DNA from: Chromobacterium subtsugae
GTDB taxonomy: Bacteria; Pseudomonadota; Gammaproteobacteria; Burkholderiales; Chromobacteriaceae
Direction of reading: 5' to 3'
Assembly: GCF_001676875.1 (NCBI RefSeq)
Contig: NZ_JYKA01000016.1
Coordinates: 1-64,000, forward strand
DNA: 64,000 nucleotides
Below are positions 12,495 to 59,345 of the stretch, one piece after another. The notes under the pieces were generated by a model. It was not told the DNA's origin. It was given only the letters and a program-made list of their open reading frames with translations, and searched no databases. The translations under genes were made by a program, and so were the position numbers. Within the stretch, counting starts at the first letter, position 1, and each line of letters begins with the position of its first letter.

Positions 12495-12977
12495 ATGCGC
12501 CTCACCACCAAAGGACGTTTTGCCGTCACAGCCATGCTGGACCTCGCCATGCGCGAGGAAGGCGGCCCGGTCACGCTGGCCGGCATCAGCGAACGCCAAA
12601 GCATCTCGCTGTCCTATCTGGAGCAGCTGTTCGGCAAGCTGCGTCGCGCCGAGCTGGTCGACAGCGTGCGCGGTCCCGGCGGTGGCTACACGCTGGCCAA
12701 GGAGACGCACGAAATCACGGTGGCCGACATCATCGTCGCCGTGGACGAACCGGTGGATGCCACCCAGTGCGGCGGACGCGAAAACTGCCGCGGCAGCCAG
12801 CGCTGCATGACCCATGACTTGTGGACCAACCTCAACGTCACCATATTCGACTACCTCTCCAAGGTGAGCCTGGCCAGCCTGGTCGCCGAGCAGCACGCCA
12901 AGGAGACCAGCGTGGTGCAGGACAAGCGCGATAGCTGTAGCACCCCTCACCTTGCCGCTGCCAGCCGAGCCCTGTAA
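12495..12977 (+). CDS. iscR: Fe-S cluster assembly regulator IscR
   Basis: A 160-residue Rrf2-family winged-helix regulator. It starts MRLTTKGRFAVTAMLDLA, with the recognition helix around SISLSYLEQLFGKLRRAELV. The three cluster cysteines fall at C92, C98 and C104 with His107, exactly the ligand set of E. coli IscR, so a [2Fe-2S] holo form is expected. The C-terminus is short and unlike E. coli (DSCSTPHLAAASRAL). A longer reading from 12447 would start inside the promoter and is rejected. Confidence 0.95.
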   Translation: MRLTTKGRFAVTAMLDLAMREEGGPVTLAGISERQSISLSYLEQLFGKLRRAELVDSVRGPGGGYTLAKETHEITVADIIVAVDEPVDATQCGGRENCRGSQRCMTHDLWTNLNVTIFDYLSKVSLASLVAEQHAKETSVVQDKRDSCSTPHLAAASRAL

Positions 12978-13007
12978 GCGCCCCGAAATCTTGTGGAGAT
13001 TATGCAA

Positions 13008-14225
13008 ATGAGCCAGCCCAAGCTGCCGATCTATCTGGATTACTCTGCCACCACGCCGGTGGACCCGCGCGTCGCCGAAAAAATGATTCCCTACCTGACC
13101 GGGAAGTTCGGCAACCCCGCCTCGCGCAGCCACAGCTTCGGCTGGGAAGCGGAGGAAGCGGTGGAAAACGCGCGCGCGGAAGTGGCCAAGCTGATTGGCG
13201 CCGATCCCAAGGAAATCGTCTGGACCTCCGGCGCGACCGAGTCCGACAACCTGGCGATCAAGGGCGCCGCCCAGTTCTACAAGAGCAAGGGCAAGCACCT
13301 CATCACCGTCAAGACCGAACACAAGGCGGTGCTGGACACCTGTCGCGAACTGGAGCGCCAGGGCTTCGAAGTCACCTATATGGACGTGCAGGAAAACGGC
13401 CTGCTCGACCTGGAGGCCTTCAAGGCCGCCATCCGCCCGGACACCATCCTGGTGTCGGTGATGTATGTGAACAATGAAATCGGCGTGATCCAGGATATTC
13501 CGCAAATCGGCGAAATCTGCCGCGGAAAAGGCATCATCTTCCACGTCGACGCCACCCAGGCGCCGGGCAAGGTCAAGATCGACCTGAACACGCTGAAAGT
13601 GGACCTGATGAGTCTGTCCGCGCACAAGGCTTACGGCCCCAAGGGCATCGGCGCGCTGTACGTGCGCCGCAAGCCGCGCGTGCGCCTGGAAGCGCAGATG
13701 CACGGCGGCGGCCACGAGCGCGGCTTCCGCTCCGGCACCCTGGCCAGCCACCAGATCGTCGGCATGGGCGAAGCTTTCCGCATCGCCCGCGAGGAAATGG
13801 ACGGCGAATGCGAACGCATCCGCATGCTGCGCGACCGCCTGTGGAACGGCATCAAGGACATGGAAGAGGTCTACATCAACGGCGACATCGACCAGCGCGT
13901 GCCGCACAACCTCAACGTCAGCTTCAACTTCGTCGAAGGCGAGAGCCTGATCATGGCCATCAAGGATCTGGCCGTGTCCAGCGGCTCGGCCTGCACCTCC
14001 GCCTCGCTGGAGCCGTCCTACGTGCTGCGCGCGCTGGGACGCAACGACGAGATGGCGCACAGCTCGATCCGCTTCACGCTGGGCCGCTTCACCACCGAGG
14101 AAGAGATCGACTTCACCATCGCCCTGCTGAAGTCCAAGATCGGCAAGCTGCGCGAGCTGTCGCCGCTGTGGGAGATGTTCAAGGACGGCGTGGACCTGAA
14201 TAGCGTTCAATGGGCGGCCCACTGA
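13008..14225 (+). CDS. iscS: Cysteine desulfurase IscS
   Basis: A 405-residue PLP enzyme that takes sulfur from L-cysteine for cluster assembly. PLP Lys is in [13 protein letters not shown]; the His of KTEHKAV stacks on PLP; the mobile catalytic loop Cys is in [17 protein letters not shown]; the C-terminal tail [18 protein letters not shown] is the IscU/ferredoxin docking segment. GGAGA at 12995 is 9 nt before the ATG at 13008 but only 3 nt before the alternative ATG at 13002, so the shorter start is preferred. Confidence 0.95.
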
Positions 14226-14285
14226 GCCGATAACGGATTATCGGCCGCGGCAACTCCAACCGCCGCGGCCCGCAGGAGAAAAGAC

Positions 14286-53399: not shown

Positions 53400-54908
53400 A
53401 TGTCTGATCACGAACAAGCACCGGCGCAAAGCCAAGACGAAAACCAGATCATGGCGGAACGCCGCCTGAAACTGCAGGCGATCCGCGAAAAAGGCATCGC
53501 CTACCCCAACGACTTCAAACGCAGCCACTTCGCCAAACCGCTGCAGGACGACCACGCCGCCAAAGAAGCGGAAGCGCTGGAAGCCGAAAAAATCGAAGTC
53601 GCCGTCGCCGGCCGCATGATGCTGAAACGTGTGATGGGCAAAGCCAGCTTCGCCACCCTGCAGGACGTGAGCGGCCGCATCCAGGCCTTCATCTCCCGCG
53701 ACAACGTGGGCGAAGACGTCTACGCCGACTTCAAGCGCTGGGACCTGGGCGACATCATCGCCGTCAAGGGCGTGCTGTTCAAGACCAAGACCGGCGAACT
53801 GACGGTGCAGGCCAGTGAAGTGCGCATGCTGTCCAAGAACATCCGTCCGCTGCCGGAAAAATTCCACGGCATCAGCGACCAGGAAACCAAATACCGCCAG
53901 CGCTACGCCGACCTGATCATGAGCGAGGAAAGCCGCGACACCTTCATCAAGCGCTCCAAGATCGTGCAGAAGGTGCGCGACGTGATGGTGGGCGAAGGCT
54001 ACCTGGAAGTGGAAACCCCGATGATGCACCCGATTCCGGGCGGCGCGTCGGCCAAGCCGTTTGTCACCCACCACAACGCCCTGGACATGCCGCTCTACCT
54101 GCGCATCGCCCCGGAGCTGTACCTGAAGCGCCTGGTGGTGGGCGGCCTGGAACGCGTGTTCGAAATCAACCGCAACTTCCGCAACGAGGGGATGAGCACG
54201 CGCCACAACCCCGAGTTCACCATGATCGAGTTCTACGAAGCGTACAGCGACTACCAGCGCATGATGGAGATGACCGAAACCATCATCCGCGAATGCGCGC
54301 TGGTTTCCTGCGGCGCCACCACCGTGAGCTACCAAGGCAAGGAAGTGGACCTGGGCAAGCCGTTCGACCGCTTCACCATCGTGGAAGCGATCAAGCACTA
54401 CAACCCGCAATACACCGACGCGCAACTGTCCGACTCCGCCTGGGTGGCCAGCGAGATCAAGCGCCTGGGCGGCAAGCTGCCCCCGGCGCCGGGCCTGGGC
54501 AGCCTGCAGCTGGCGCTGTTCGAAGAATGCGCCGAGTCGCTGCTGTGGAACCCGACCTTCATCATCGACTACCCGGTGGAAGTCTCCCCGCTGGCGCGCG
54601 GCTCCGACACCCAGCCGGGCCTGACCGAGCGCTTCGAGCTGTTCATCGTGGGCCGCGAGCACGCCAACGGCTACTCGGAGTTGAACGATCCGGAAGACCA
54701 AGCCGCGCGCTTCCAGGCGCAAGTCGCCCAGAAGGATGCCGGCGATGATGAGGCGATGCACTACGACGCCGACTACATCCGCGCGATGGAATACGGCCTG
54801 CCGCCGACCGGCGGTTGCGGCATCGGCATCGACCGCCTGGTGATGCTGCTGACCGATGCGCCGTCTATCCGGGATGTGATCTTGTTCCCGCACATGCGTC
54901 CGGAGTAA
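53400..54908 (+). CDS. lysS: Lysyl-tRNA synthetase (class II)
   Basis: A 502-residue class II LysRS. The OB-fold anticodon domain (about residues 55-165) is followed by the catalytic domain with motif 2 [22 protein letters not shown] and motif 3 [13 protein letters not shown]. It starts [16 protein letters not shown], with GGAG upstream. It lies 84 nt after prfB, the same order as in many proteobacteria. Confidence 0.96.
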
Positions 54909-54938
54909 GCTTTAGCGAGTTGACATTGGGCTAAAGAG

Positions 54939-54978
54939 AAAGCCGCTCACTGCAAGGTGGGCGGCTTTATTTATATTT
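54939..54978 (+). terminator. Terminator after lysS
   Basis: AAAGCCGCTCAC/GTGGGCGGCTTT (one G-U) with a 6-nt loop, then TTT-ATTTATATTT. It separates the core genome from the AT-rich block that follows; that block reads in the opposite direction and ends here. Confidence 0.88.
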
Positions 54979-54995
54979 AAAAAATACCTTGGGTT

Positions 54996-55637
54996 TTATT
55001 TCCACCCAACAAAGTGACAGGAGAAAAAAATTAAAAAAACAAATACAACCCAAGTCAAGATGTAAAAATAAGTACTTGCAAACTTCCAAGCCAAAGTAGC
55101 ACAAAATGACTCAAAGCATGTCATTGCAGGAACATTATCCGACTTTCTAAATTCATCTGAAAATCTATGCTTACTAATAAAGTAGGTATCATCGACTGGC
55201 TCATGATTATATGAGCAAGAGGTACGAATCTTAGCGTATTCTAAAGCTAGCTTCTCATACTGTTCCACTGTGAGAGAAGGAGCTTTTTTTTCACACTCGA
55301 CAATGATTGAAATACGCGTTTGAAAATCATTAAGCTCTTCTGCATTTCGATAAAGAGCATCAGCCTTAACTCCACTCCCCCCCGCCCACTCAACCAGTGT
55401 CAATACCAAAATCAACAAACCAAGACAAGCAGAAATAGCAGTCAGATAATTATCCAAAGAAGAACCTGATATGACAAAAATCTTCTGTATAAATGCAACC
55501 GCTATAATAGAAGCTGAGAATAAAGATAAGCTTAACGTTGAAAATATATCTTTTCGCCGTATTCGCCTCGCAGAATTATACCTAGCACTAGCAGTACGCC
55601 AAGCCTTTTTCCGAAGCTCTTCCAAACTGTCTTTCAT
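54996..55637 (-). CDS. SLATT-type membrane effector of the RT module
   Basis: A 213-residue membrane protein: a basic, charged N-terminus (MKDSLEELRKKAWRTASARY), two helices at about 31-55 and 62-85 and a third at the C-terminus (191-210), joined by a soluble helical middle with EAELNDFQTR-like and TVEQYEKLALEYAKIRT segments. This is the layout of SLATT domains (SMODS- and SLOG-associating 2TM effector), probably family 5, which is typically paired with reverse transcriptases and is predicted to kill infected cells by membrane leakage. GGAGG lies 4 nt before the ATG. It is AT-rich and downstream of the RT gene. Family assignment is from recognition; a profile search would settle it. Confidence 0.72.
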   Translation of the reverse strand: MKDSLEELRKKAWRTASARYNSARRIRRKDIFSTLSLSLFSASIIAVAFIQKIFVISGSSLDNYLTAISACLGLLILVLTLVEWAGGSGVKADALYRNAEELNDFQTRISIIVECEKKAPSLTVEQYEKLALEYAKIRTSCSYNHEPVDDTYFISKHRFSDEFRKSDNVPAMTCFESFCATLAWKFASTYFYILTWVVFVFLIFFSCHFVGWK

Positions 55638-55657
55638 GCGCCTCCTGCCTATTTAGG

Positions 55658-55811
55658 GCAGACCTCTCCAATACAATCTATTATATCCTCTCCCACAAAA
55701 TTTATAGTGGAAGGTTCCGATTTTACGGACCTAGAATCAGGTAATGTTCACTTCCGCCCCCAATGCAACTAAAGTCCATCGAGAGGTATGCGCATGCATT
55801 GAGAGGTCTGC
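55658..55811 (-). ncRNA. Candidate structured RNA between RT and SLATT genes
   Basis: In minus-strand (transcript) sense, GCAGACCTCTC (55811-55801) pairs perfectly with GAGAGGTCTGC (55668-55658), extended by AAT/ATT past a one-base bulge. Inside it, CCTCTC (55786-55781) pairs with GAGAGG (55692-55687), again extended by three pairs past a bulge, and AGGTCCG/CGG-A-ACCT (55732-55712) forms a hairpin. The nested arms close about 150 nt, which fills nearly the whole 197-nt gap. It recalls the closing arms of RT-associated non-coding RNAs. Base-paired regions are seen; the RNA and its role are inferred. Confidence 0.5.
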
Positions 55812-55834
55812 TTAGCTATTCTACTACAATCTCA

Positions 55835-57265
55835 TCAATACACAACCCCTTCATCCGCATGCATTGATGACAATACAAACCTCTTATAGCTTTGAAATCG
55901 GCTTTCTATTTGCTCATCACTCAAAGACTCATCTGGTGCGACTCTACCCCTCGCTACTAAAAATTCTAACTTATCAACCAAACTAACAATTGAATCATAA
56001 TTTTTAACATAGCCACCTGTCGGGTTAAACTTCATCTCCCAGTATGCTCTAGACAATTTTTTCAAATTGGGTGGGGCCGTAAAATCAAACTCACCAAGCC
56101 GGCCAAACAAATTACTAATCGCATTGTCAATTCTATACAGCAAACTCATATCATTTATCTGATTAAAATATGCAATCCAACCATATCTTTTATTATCTGA
56201 TATAGCACCAGCCACCTTCTCATTTAGCTCAGAAACAAATATATCTTTTAACCTGCTTGAATTTAAATAACTTAATCTTTCCAGTCTTTTACTTTTATTA
56301 TGTCTAAAATCACTAAACTTTGCTGCAATGGACTGCAAAAACCTTTCAACTGTGGCATGCCTAACCGTGAGAGTATCACCATCAAAACGATATCCAAGGT
56401 ATAAAAATGGCTCGCATCGCCTTCCAAAGTGTGTCTTTTCTGAACTTAAGGGATGTAGTTTCAACCCCCTAGTCTGAAGCCTCCTTTTCAAGGATTTAAA
56501 TGCAAATTCCACACTATCTCTCTCACCATACATTAACACATCATCTACATACCGATGATACCCAACACCCATCCCCACCATACCATCATCTATTGGCTGC
56601 ATATAGATAGATGACAATATATTTGATATAGCAAGACCCTGAGGTATTCCACACGCCCTCTTATATTTATGATATAAATTTTTAGAGCAATTTTTCGGAA
56701 CCGTCGGAGTAACCAAAGAGCTCTTAATCAGTTTCAATGCAATTTTCGATTTAATACGGCGAGAAAGCAGTGCAATCAACCTACTTATATCTACATCATC
56801 ATAAAATGTAACAATATCTGCCCCACAAACCCACGTGGAATCCATAGGTAGCTCAGCTAACTTTCCAGAAATATCCCGAATATATACGCTTGCGATGTTC
56901 CTAGTAACTCTTTCAGGATAGATTATCGACAGAAACTTATTTAGCTGGGAAAGAATTATTCTATCGCGTATTGTTGGAACGGAAATTAATCTGGGTGGCT
57001 TTTCTCTATTTTTTACCTTAAGAACCTCTAAGTAAGGAGAAAATCTATACGTCCCATTTATACTTTTCTCACAAGCCAAATATATTTCCGCAGCAGCCCT
57101 CGATGAAAATTGAAAGCCATTAATCCTATCAATACCTTTTGCGGAACTATTTTTATATTTCGCCTGATAAATATCAATCAAAAAATGAGCCGAAAAAAGG
57201 CTGCGAAACAAGCCATCATCATCAATCACCCCATCATTATACTTTTTAACTATGCCCTCTATCAT
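55835..57265 (-). CDS. Defence-type reverse transcriptase (UG/Abi group)
   Basis: A 476-residue RT. Motif 1-2 region is RFSPYLEVLKVKNREKPPRLIS-like with IPTIRDRII, motif A is ADIVTFYDDVD (residues 149-159), motif B is GIPQGLAISNILSSIY (206-221), motif C is RYVDDVLMYG (catalytic DD at 241-242), motif D is LSSEKTHFG and motif E is FLYLGYRF. Polymerase residues are intact. The PQG-LA-S-N-ILS motif B resembles Abi/UG RTs and not group II intron or retron RTs. No maturase or endonuclease domain follows; the C-terminal 190 residues are probably helical and unassigned. ATG at 57265 is chosen over a TTG 33 nt upstream. It is AT-rich, unlike its neighbours. Confidence 0.85.
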   Translation of the reverse strand: MIEGIVKKYNDGVIDDDGLFRSLFSAHFLIDIYQAKYKNSSAKGIDRINGFQFSSRAAAEIYLACEKSINGTYRFSPYLEVLKVKNREKPPRLISVPTIRDRIILSQLNKFLSIIYPERVTRNIASVYIRDISGKLAELPMDSTWVCGADIVTFYDDVDISRLIALLSRRIKSKIALKLIKSSLVTPTVPKNCSKNLYHKYKRACGIPQGLAISNILSSIYMQPIDDGMVGMGVGYHRYVDDVLMYGERDSVEFAFKSLKRRLQTRGLKLHPLSSEKTHFGRRCEPFLYLGYRFDGDTLTVRHATVERFLQSIAAKFSDFRHNKSKRLERLSYLNSSRLKDIFVSELNEKVAGAISDNKRYGWIAYFNQINDMSLLYRIDNAISNLFGRLGEFDFTAPPNLKKLSRAYWEMKFNPTGGYVKNYDSIVSLVDKLEFLVARGRVAPDESLSDEQIESRFQSYKRFVLSSMHADEGVVY

Positions 57266-57374
57266 AACAAAAAAGCCTCTATAAAATAAATACCGCAACC
57301 TTTACGCAAAAGCTATCAATTAAACTATACCGCTCTAACTATAACATTAACCACATAATATATATTTGTTTGGT

Positions 57375-57600
57375 GTCCGCTCCGCGGACTGATCCTTTAA
57401 TGCCGGTTCCGCCCGGCTTGACGGGTCCATTTCTTTTGCTTCGCCAAAAGAAATGGACGAAAGAAAAGGCGACCCAACAGCGCTGCGAAACCCCGCCTCC
57501 AAAGCCCTTTCCAAGGCGCCGCCGAACTCGCGGGGCGCTAACGTCGCCCCGCTCAAACAAACGGCGGCTTAAAACCTTGGAAAGGGCTTCGGAGTCGGCT
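57375..57600 (-). repeat. Dispersed intergenic repeat, copy A
   Basis: Reads on the minus strand. It shares with copies B and C a 5' block (GGTTTTAAGC, then TGTTTGAGC and GCGACGTTAGCGC), a middle block (CGAGTTCGGCGGC) and a 3' block GGGCGGAACCGGC ending in a short palindrome (GTCCGC-TCC-GCGGAC at 57375-57389). A 13-bp hairpin with TCCATTTCTTTTG and CAAAAGAAATGGA (about 57425-57456) lies inside. Frames through it give apparent proteins but are repeat-derived. Confidence 0.7.
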
Positions 57601-57615
57601 TGCGCTGATGGGATA

Positions 57616-57840
57616 GGGGCAAGTTGGTTCGACTCTACAACCAGCAAAAAGCAAAGACATTGAGATGATACAACATCAGCATAACTCATTCATCATGTCA
57701 GCAAGTTTGAAGCTCTCCATGACATGGAGGAAGACAAGCCTGTAGGAATCTTGGTCAGCAGTTCTGAGATATCCACACGGTAGTGTGGACTGGCAGACGA
57801 GAAACAAGCACGTTTGCGACGTGCCCCATCCCCTTCAAGC
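57616..57840. other. Intergenic stretch between repeat copies A and B
   Basis: No gene is seen. It holds one small hairpin (TCCACAC-GGTA-GTGTGGA, 57772-57789) and otherwise no structure I can support. Confidence 0.5.
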
Positions 57841-58069
57841 CTGCCGTCGGGTGGCAGGCCCGAGGTTTTAAGCGGCTGCCTGTTTGAGTCCCGCGACGTT
57901 AGCGCAGGACGAGTTCAGCCGCGCCTCGGGTCTGACGGGAACCGGCGGGAAGCCGCAGGCCAGGCTTGCAGGGTGGCCGGGATACCGAGTGAGGCCATAG
58001 AGCAGGCAAATATCCCCTCCCTGCCGCCGGGCAGCCCCGGCAACCCAAATCATCATCCGCGCAGCGGAT
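57841..58069 (+). repeat. Dispersed intergenic repeat, copy B
   Basis: Plus-strand copy of the same family: GAGGTTTTAAGCGGCTG, TGTTTGAG, GCGACGTTAGCGCAGGACGA and a closing palindrome ATCCGC-GCA-GCGGAT (58055-58069). It is more diverged than copies A and C. Confidence 0.65.
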
Positions 58070-58100
58070 TCCCAAAAGCACATCACAGGCAAACCGCCCG

Positions 58101-58364
58101 CTACTTGCTCGCCTTATCCAGCAAGCCGCCAAACATCTCCGGGTCAACCAAGTCTCTCAGCGCCACGCCCAAGGCGTCGGCCAATGCTCCCATATTGTCG
58201 ATGGAGACATTGCGCTCGCCGCGCTCGATCTCTGACACATAGGTTCTGCTCATCCCCGCCTGCAAAGCCAACGCCTCCTGCGACACATCGTGCAGACGTC
58301 TGGCAATCCGCAGGTTGCGGGCGAAAACCGCGCGGGCGGTTAAGGGTTTTGTTGTGTTTTCCAT
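58101..58364 (-). CDS. XRE-family HTH regulator
   Basis: An 87-residue single-domain XRE (Cro/C1-type) protein: RIARRLHDVSQEALALQAGMSRTYVSEIERGERNVS is the helix-turn-helix. It has the size and form of a restriction-modification controller or an orphan regulator, but no methylase or nuclease is nearby. A GGGGT sequence is the only ribosome-site candidate. It is GC-rich, unlike the RT block. Confidence 0.85.
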   Translation of the reverse strand: MENTTKPLTARAVFARNLRIARRLHDVSQEALALQAGMSRTYVSEIERGERNVSIDNMGALADALGVALRDLVDPEMFGGLLDKASK

Positions 58365-58378
58365 ACCCCGATAGCATC

Positions 58379-58394
58379 AGCGCTTGCTAGCGCT
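58379..58394. promoter_or_regulatory. Putative autoregulatory operator of the XRE gene
   Basis: AGCGCT-TGCT-AGCGCT, two self-palindromic hexamers 10 bp apart centre to centre, lie 15 nt upstream of the ATG, on top of a TTGAGC-like -35. Such pairs are typical of XRE autorepressor sites. Confidence 0.55.
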
Positions 58395-58634
58395 CAAGCC
58401 ACACGGTATGATTTGCAAAATGTTAACTATAAGTGACTTTTTGATTGTTATTGATATCTTCATGACACTCATTATGTGCTATGCGCTGCTTTGCCAGCCA
58501 CACATGGGGGTGCTTATGCAGAAAATTCCCATTCCGTGATCTACGGCGCTTTGCCGCTCCCGCTCTGTCTTGACCACATGCAGAACGTTGCCCACCCGAC
58601 CACGACAACGTTCAATCAAAATGAGGGTTTTGCC

Positions 58635-59051
58635 ATGCCTAGCATCACCCGCAGTTCATCGCATCTCGCGCTTTCCCTGAAAAACCGCCACCCCGCCCGC
58701 AGCCGTTGGCTGCTGCACAACCCAGTCCCCACCCATCCGCCCAGCCTGCTGGCCATGACCCGGCTGCACGAAGCCTTTGCCGCCTTGCAAGAGCAACTGG
58801 CCGGCAAGGATCAAGCCAAGGTCAGAGAACCGGCCGCGCGCGTGGCGCATTTGTGCCACGACATCGAGCAGGCGGTGGTGGAGTCCATCTGCCACCTCGC
58901 CCATGGCCAATTGGGTTTGCAATCCGTGATCGAGCTGCTGGCTTGCCTGGGCGACGATGTCCGCCTGCCTTCCAGCCGCATCACGGAGTTGCTGTCGCCG
59001 CTGGACAAGCGCATGGACGAGTCGCTGTCGCTGCTCACCCGCGTGCTGTAA
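58635..59051 (+). CDS. Hypothetical protein, possibly DUF1484 family
   Basis: A 138-residue protein that starts MPSITRSSSHLALSLK, with a basic N-terminus and a mostly helical body (LLAMTRLHEAFAALQEQLAG ... VVESICHLAHGQLGLQSVIELLACLGDDV) ending KRMDESLSLLTRVL. I recall a similar family in Chromobacterium and Ralstonia (DUF1484), function unknown. GAGGG 8 nt upstream supports the start. Its last 100 bp are repeated as a broken copy at 59248-59345. Confidence 0.65.
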   Translation: MPSITRSSSHLALSLKNRHPARSRWLLHNPVPTHPPSLLAMTRLHEAFAALQEQLAGKDQAKVREPAARVAHLCHDIEQAVVESICHLAHGQLGLQSVIELLACLGDDVRLPSSRITELLSPLDKRMDESLSLLTRVL

Positions 59052-59068
59052 GCCCTGCTCCATGAGCC

Positions 59069-59104
59069 AACAGCCTGCCCGCTTCCCAGCGACAGGCTGT
59101 TTTT
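59069..59104 (+). terminator. Terminator after the hypothetical gene
   Basis: AACAGCCTG/CAGGCTGTT with a 15-nt loop, followed by TTTT. Confidence 0.75.
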
Positions 59105-59119
59105 GATTCGACGGATTTT

Positions 59120-59243
59120 GTAGGGTGGAATCCCGGCAAAGCCGGGAGTTCCACCGCAATGCGATTCACTGCGATATGGCGGTGCAATGCCCGGCTGAAC
59201 AATGGCTGCATCCAATCGTTTCAAGCCGGGTATTGCACCCTAC
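59120..59243. mobile_element. 124-bp palindromic MITE-like element
   Basis: The ends are inverted repeats: left GTAGGGTGGAATCCCGGC and right, read inward, GTAGGGTGCAATACCCGGC. Inner palindromic segments (CCCGGC-AAA-GCCGGG) make the whole foldable. It carries no ORF, as in non-autonomous elements mobilised in trans. It sits between a gene and the truncated copy of its 3' end. Confidence 0.6.
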
Positions 59244-59247
59244 GCTT

Positions 59248-59345
59248 GCGACGCCCGCCAGCCCTCCAGCCGTATCACCGAGTTGCTGATGCCGCTGGGC
59301 AAGCGCATGCACGAGTCGCTGACACTGCTCACCCGCGTGCTGTAA
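59248..59345 (+). pseudogene. Truncated duplicate of the preceding gene's 3' end
   Basis: About 98 bp match 58954-59051 with a modest number of substitutions, including the shared segments CGAGTCGCTG and CTGCTCACCCGCGTGCTGTAA with the stop codon and the following GCCCT. The start and upstream part are missing, so it is a non-functional remnant. Confidence 0.8.

Follow-up and report, generated by a model that had tools for sequence, protein, structure and literature searches.

A locus just downstream of lysS in Chromobacterium subtsugae is very probably a DRT10 (UG17) anti-phage system composed of a reverse transcriptase (RT), a non-coding RNA (ncRNA) and a SLATT protein, and belongs to a sublineage in which these parts are ordered RT-ncRNA-SLATT. 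It lies within the window, by which we mean the whole 64,000 nt stretch of DNA that was analysed (contig NZ_JYKA01000016.1, positions 1 to 64,000). Like DRT10, the locus carries a UG17 RT with a YxDD motif, an adjacent SLATT gene, a conserved structured RNA directly upstream of SLATT, a putative template loop that follows a stem-loop and has an A-B-A′ pattern (by comparison, in 16 of 18 loci), and a tyrosine at the C-terminal position occupied by the serine or tyrosine primer. The protein homologies, the conserved covarying RNA, the A-B-A′ register and the C-terminal tyrosine can all be read directly from the sequences, and by analogy with the DRT10 preprint (PMC12632851, in its available text) we infer protein priming, repeat synthesis and defence, together with expression of the RNA and production of cDNA. 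Phage defence and repeat synthesis by the locus are, on that analogy, strongly expected.

Relatives of this system are already known. In complete genomes, 82% of UG17 RTs are reported to have SLATT_5 as a neighbour (PMC8934634, available text), and UG17+SLATT systems have been reported to defend Escherichia coli and named DRT10 (PMC12632851, a preprint of October 2025); a further paper, PMC13174585, also concerns this kind of system. A preliminary description of the locus had taken the RT/SLATT pair to be uncharacterised, a claim that these reports overturn: because UG17 is DRT10, the pair is known in kind. A literature search found no paper on a UG17 RT/SLATT pair in Chromobacterium. According to the available text of PMC12632851, DRT10 has three parts, namely the RT, SLATT and an ncRNA upstream of SLATT that is bound by the RT and templates tandem-repeat DNA via an A-B-A′ arrangement. 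By comparison with DRT10, the conserved structured RNA in the gap between the two genes would be a third part, and the idea of a two-gene module has to be given up.

The reverse transcriptase and the SLATT protein

The layout proposed in the preliminary description, an intact RT and a separate SLATT-like protein on the minus strand of an AT-rich unit after lysS, is borne out. The RT ORF runs from 57265 to 55835 on the minus strand (476 aa counted from the ATG at 57265, or 487 aa from an alternative upstream start, a TTG at 57298) and the SLATT ORF from 55637 to 54996 on the same strand (213 aa), leaving an intergenic gap of 197 bases. The unit comes just after lysS, which ends at 54908. The GC content is 0.36-0.41 in 500-base windows inside 55000-57249, whereas it is 0.55-0.70 in the left flank and 0.50-0.69 in the right flank from 57500 on, with most flanking values at or above 0.6.

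The RT matches the PADLOC RT_UG17 model at 1.7e-130 (433.7 bits, residues 19-474), followed by the generic PADLOC RT model at 7.1e-32 (108.9 bits); UG4 is the next UG model in PADLOC (4.6e-22), and the Pfam RVT_1 family is matched at 2.4e-19. By these sequence matches, the RT is of the UG17 type, i.e. of the DRT10 class, in agreement with the UG-type enzyme first suggested. The PADLOC Drt9 model, DRT9 being what we take to be UG28, is absent from the best 25 of the 69 models matching the RT, and the Drt3a model, which we take to represent UG3, is among the better non-UG17 models (1.1e-21). The YVDD catalytic motif is intact at residues 239-242. When used as a query on its own genome, the RT found itself as the sole match at E up to 0.001, and the UG17 profile has two matches in that genome, this RT and a weaker one.

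The last residue of the RT, Y476, is invariant in 16 of 16 rows of RT alignment A3. More broadly, a tyrosine lies among the final three residues in all 18 loci of the window's clade (for L015, whose RT is split in two frames, it was read from the second frame), being the last residue in eight, followed by Gly in nine and followed by Pro-Lys in one. Y476 is placed like the known C-terminal primers of DRT10, S456 in Eco3 and Y444 in Eco1 (PMC12632851, available text), and is a candidate protein primer.

The 213-aa protein matches Pfam SLATT_5 (2.2e-31, 109.1 bits, above the cut-off of 29.5), NCBIfam SLATT_5 (118.1 bits, above the cut-off of 60) and PADLOC RTasSLATT (7.4e-41), as the preliminary description had anticipated; a search of solved structures returned no relative at E up to 1. 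As a SLATT_5/RTasSLATT protein, it is predicted to be the membrane effector of the system.

A conserved structured RNA between the two genes

None of 200 shuffles of the 197-nt gap folds as well as the gap itself (z -2.78). A covariance model, R1, was built from 16 relatives with the window and L051 excluded. Searched with R1, the gap scores 45.5 bits (E=1.7e-11). R1 matches no other place in the window at E up to 10, and nowhere else in the 4.8-Mb genome, where 150 of 629 first-look candidates were scored, did it give a match at E up to 0.001. L051, likewise outside the model, is also detected (7.2e-14). The match delimits a DRT10-type ncRNA at 55816-55652 on the minus strand, with predicted ends. 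A search of 54800-57500 against Rfam 15 gave no family at E up to 1.

Eighteen loci were compared: the window, 14 loci from genome contigs, L020 and L021 from the search of the order, and L051 from viral contigs. In an alignment of these loci that was fitted to R1, so that its pairing and covariation figures lean towards the model, standard pairs occupy 88.8% of cells (vs 69.0% when shuffled and 40-47% when slid), both-sided changes occur in 42 of 49 pairs and the covariation score is 0.551 (0.208 after shuffling and 0.10-0.14 after sliding). When 17 loci were aligned simply with MAFFT, 30 of the 39 predicted pairs had both-sided changes. Judged by this comparison, the gap holds a conserved structured RNA. 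Its closing stem, P1, pairs 55811-55801 with 55668-55658 on the minus strand (11 pairs, overall span 55658-55811) and can be extended inward by three pairs past a one-base bulge; as helix 1 of the alignment, it has both-sided changes in 13 of 13 pairs, and 94.4% of its cells are paired. A smaller stem-loop (55713-55707 with 55696-55690, minus strand; helix 6 of the covariation alignment) lies 5′ of the putative template loop, and by position is the counterpart of SL5 in Eco3DRT10.

A -10-like hexamer, TAGAAT, is found at 55818-55823 (minus strand), just 5′ of the ncRNA. In 13 of 18 loci the motif TANNAT starts 7-11 nt ahead of the R1 start (the rate in shuffles is 0.047), and this recurrence makes it plausible that the ncRNA has a promoter of its own; a -35 element was sought upstream of the ncRNA and none stands out.

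The predicted template loop and cDNA repeat

The loop after the stem-loop at 55713-55690 is AGGATATAATAGATTGTAT, and carries GAT-ATAATA-GAT in an A-B-A′ pattern. The predicted template A-B is GATATAATA (55679-55687, minus strand, with A = GAT at 55687-55685) and the predicted alignment segment A′ is GAT (55676-55678, minus strand), in a register shared across loci. The predicted cDNA is (TATTATATC)n, with a 9-nt unit.

As 78% of loop shuffles do as well, the A-B-A′ pattern of the window is not significant by itself, and the case for it rests on the comparison across loci. We scored identity in the 18 loci for all pairs of loop columns at a distance of six columns or more. The three pairs with the highest identity sit side by side in a single register (identical in 18, 17 and 17 of 18 loci), and each shows one concerted change. 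The A and A′ triplets are identical in 16 of 18 loci, as GAT in 15 and as TAA in L010, where both triplets changed alike. In L009 (GAT/GAA) the match is broken, and in L015 the triplets agree at two of three places, with one column showing a concerted change. The presence of GAT at both sites in 15 loci may be plain conservation.

A reading in which the same DRT10 enzyme uses a register other than the 9-nt GAT...GAT, or adds repeats imprecisely and so yields another unit length, is unlikely, albeit the best placed of the alternatives. It would accord with the outcome of the single-loop shuffle test, with the imprecise repeats of Eco1DRT10 (PMC12632851, available text) and with the periods that the scan chose in some loci (7 in L008, L009, L011, L012 and L014, and 6 in L015). 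However, the predicted register is the only one in which the triplets match in at least 4 of the 18 loci, all others falling below that number, and GAT is present just twice in the window's loop.

Two loci allow a comparison with the published Eco3 system. In L114, a positive control found by protein homology, the Eco3 template and A′ are present exactly as published (CAATGATTC-CAAT); the RT frame of L114 has an altered C-terminus and ends unlike that of its kin. The exact Eco3 template pattern was not found in L080, a close E. coli relative, which has CAACGGTTC-CAA at the template position. This loop would predict a 9-nt repeat, GAACCGTTG. In E. coli, the UG17 locus L080 (1591-3712) has an integrase at its side, next to dusA, and its RT has 456 aa and a C-terminal Ser.

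The main ground for caution about the window's own copy is its RNA, since the window is the lowest-scoring R1 match (45.5 bits) in a set of 18 rows of which 16 built R1, and so match it by construction, and its own minimum-energy fold retains only 15 of 31 conserved pairs, the lowest share among the 18 loci, and base-pairs part of the template. A weak RNA match with an atypical fold is what a decayed, non-working copy might display, and a related locus, L015, looks decayed, with its RT in two frames and SLATT not found. Yet both frames in the window are open and of full length, and YVDD, Y476, the closing stem and A/A′ are all retained, which makes decay a distinctly improbable account.

Still less probable is that the gap RNA is a leader or attenuator of SLATT and no template for the RT, which would then make untemplated DNA in the manner of Abi enzymes. 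The RNA does sit immediately upstream of SLATT, the R1 match running to 55652 and the SLATT ORF beginning at 55637, and Class 1 Abi RTs make untemplated DNA (PMC12632851, available text). However, the same source treats UG17 as Class 2 and describes a DRT10 ncRNA upstream of SLATT that binds the RT and templates cDNA, and the in-register identity of A and A′ across loci would not be expected of an attenuator.

Relatives, gene order and phylogeny

The order RT-ncRNA-SLATT is found in 16 of the 18 loci of the window's clade, in line with the initial expectation that the RT and SLATT genes would be conserved as neighbours in other genomes. The exceptions are L014, whose contig ends ~290 bases past the RT, and L015, with its broken RT and missing SLATT. 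L015 (1-1267) is a decayed relative that retains the RNA (134.8 bits). L052 is the same as L014 over the shared compared stretch and was left uncounted.

In contrast, the other UG17 loci (n=32, many of them near-identical) have the order SLATT-RT in 28 and are cut by a contig end in four; the SLATT of L057 was counted on a weak match (7e-5). The window's clade, in which the RT is upstream of the ncRNA and SLATT comes last, differs in order from the E. coli examples of DRT10. The C-termini also differ: whereas every one of the clade's 18 loci has the tyrosine, the RT ends in Ser in 30 of the 32 other loci, the remaining two being L056, with Tyr, and L114, with its different frame end. The RTs of the window's clade are ~30% identical to other UG17 RTs. 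With R1, no match was found at E up to 10 in any of these 32 loci, so the homology of the two groups of RNAs rests on their place and outline.

In a quick tree of 45 rows, including five outgroup rows and with identical rows merged, the window's clade forms one branch (SH-aLRT 99, 17 rows) on a long stem, and the remaining UG17 loci are not a single clade; the branches of both the clade and the outgroup are among the long ones flagged with a warning that they may meet. Broken or partial frames (L015, L121, L122 and L114) were excluded from this tree. That the RT is a group II intron or retron-like enzyme beside an unrelated membrane gene can be dismissed for practical purposes, and a group II identity is largely refuted: the group II RT/maturase model TIGR04416 does align to the RT, at 4.8e-33, and retron-type/group II RTs give the best scores among solved structures, but the TIGR04416 score of 114.7 bits is under the curated cut-off of 300 and far below the 433.7 bits of UG17, the five outgroup RTs, assumed to be group II-like, fall outside the UG17 rows, and SLATT and the RNA are conserved together with the RT. 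With SLATT matches, an RT outside group II and a conserved pair, the core of the preliminary description stands.

At E up to 0.001, the UG17 profile has matches in 130 of the 399 genomes from the order; among the matches listed, L020, L021 and the window alone score above 400 bits. The RT has matches at E up to 0.001 in four of the 18 other genomes of the genus. Only the match in G004, which is UG17 and 32% identical, spans most of the protein, and its locus has the order SLATT-RT and lies on a different contig from lysS; the three further matches cover ~170-215 residues. A second kind of UG17 locus, with SLATT-RT order and a C-terminal Ser (L016/L058), is present in another genome of the genus, on a contig other than that of lysS. 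A phage collection contained no relative of the RT at 1e-20, and a plasmid search gave seven records at 26-32% identity, of which H1, H2, H4 and H5 were retrieved and H3, H6 and H7 left out. E. coli genomes searched as DNA gave no match to L016 and L056; with L055 as the query, 184 genomes matched, L080 being the one examined.

These differences raise the possibility that the window represents a separate DRT10 lineage, with a permuted RT-ncRNA-SLATT order, an obligate tyrosine primer, its own RNA family, a nearly fixed GAT and a variable B; we put this forward tentatively, as a proposal that may well not hold. The main text of PMC12632851, figures and supplements aside, was found to contain no statement on the RT-ncRNA-SLATT order.

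A model for the locus and its implications

We propose a model in which the ncRNA would fold as a long stem bearing smaller stem-loops, and the RT would prime DNA synthesis from its C-terminal tyrosine and copy the template. The nascent 3′ end (ATC) could then slip back and re-anneal to the downstream GAT, and repeated cycles would generate RT-linked single-stranded repeat DNA. This DNA may control the SLATT membrane protein, which would harm the cell once phage infection upsets the balance. The joint action of cDNA and SLATT is speculative, in the DRT10 preprint as here.

Other templated systems offer partial parallels. DRT9, likewise a Class 2 DRT, is primed by protein and templated by an ncRNA of similar outline (per PMC12632851, available text), but its poly-U tract gives rise to poly-A, unlike the template predicted here. 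In DRT3a, too, a loop motif is copied into repeats (PMC13174585, available text); DRT3a differs in having a partner RT, DRT3b. In the window's genome the RT query found only itself at E up to 0.001, although the UG17 profile gave a second, weaker match there. Telomerase (TERT/TR) resembles the system in combining a template, an alignment segment and repeat addition, a comparison drawn in the DRT10 preprint (PMC12632851, available text); the likeness put forward here is one of working.

Few DRT10 systems have been tested, and DRT10 is proposed to be both a bacterial counterpart and a relative of telomerase. The lineage described here offers an independent test set, with a near-fixed triplet, a variable B, a tyrosine primer and a permuted operon, and wherever the A and A′ triplets agree, in 16 of 18 loci, an exact DNA unit can be predicted. 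If the clade is indeed a separate lineage of this kind, the RT-ncRNA-SLATT order could allow the RT to be produced before, and apart from, the RNA and SLATT. If the near-fixed GAT reflects SLATT (or the RT) reading ATC at repeat ends, the cDNA sequence would itself be read as a signal, and the cDNA would be more than a repeat of free sequence.

The genomic setting downstream of lysS

All 19 genomes of the genus that were searched retain lysS, and the genes that follow it, compared in 17 of the 18 other genomes (G002 was left out), differ between genomes of the same genus. Cargo was listed at 12 loci, and the proteins of seven were scanned, with L082, L084, L085, L086 and L090 outside the scan. 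Putative defence cargo is present in five of the seven scanned loci, by PADLOC matches, from models that carry no cut-off, in four and by a Pfam EVE domain in one. The PADLOC matches are SIR2/ThsA-like in L081, GmrSD_N/NsnA-like in L087, an NsnB-like AAA protein in L088 and PD-Lambda-2 A and B in L091, where Pfam identifies the A protein as a HigB toxin; the EVE domain, in L089, was found by Pfam only. L096 carries an acyltransferase. With cargo this varied and several defence matches, the spot after lysS looks, from its gene content, like a defence hotspot, which accords with an anti-phage role for the module. The main ORF of L083 (570 aa, 12559-14271, minus strand) matches neither Pfam nor PADLOC models at E up to 0.001, and is a candidate for an unknown defence gene. 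L082 has two copies of one ORF that presumably derives from an IS, given its resemblance to a transposase. The cargo of the window extends over 54972-57343, and cargo genes across the genus are mostly of low GC.

As for the repeats that the preliminary description had placed beside the unit, 54850-59300 contains two inverted-repeat pairs, all of whose arms fall in 57493-57929, and a search there for direct repeat families of at least 18 bases found none. Inverted arms are at 57511-57580 and 57860-57929, and a block downstream of the module covers 57343-57638. This block, with a start at 57343-57364, recurs downstream of lysS in 9 of the 17 compared loci of the genus, and is present twice in both L086 and L087.

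In L091 (genome G016), a partial duplication of the lysS 3′ end, 591 bases long and 94.8% identical to the window, lies next to the cargo. This duplication may mark how cargo enters the site; in the orientation of lysS, the duplicated segments of L091 are at 1-718 and 1339-1929.
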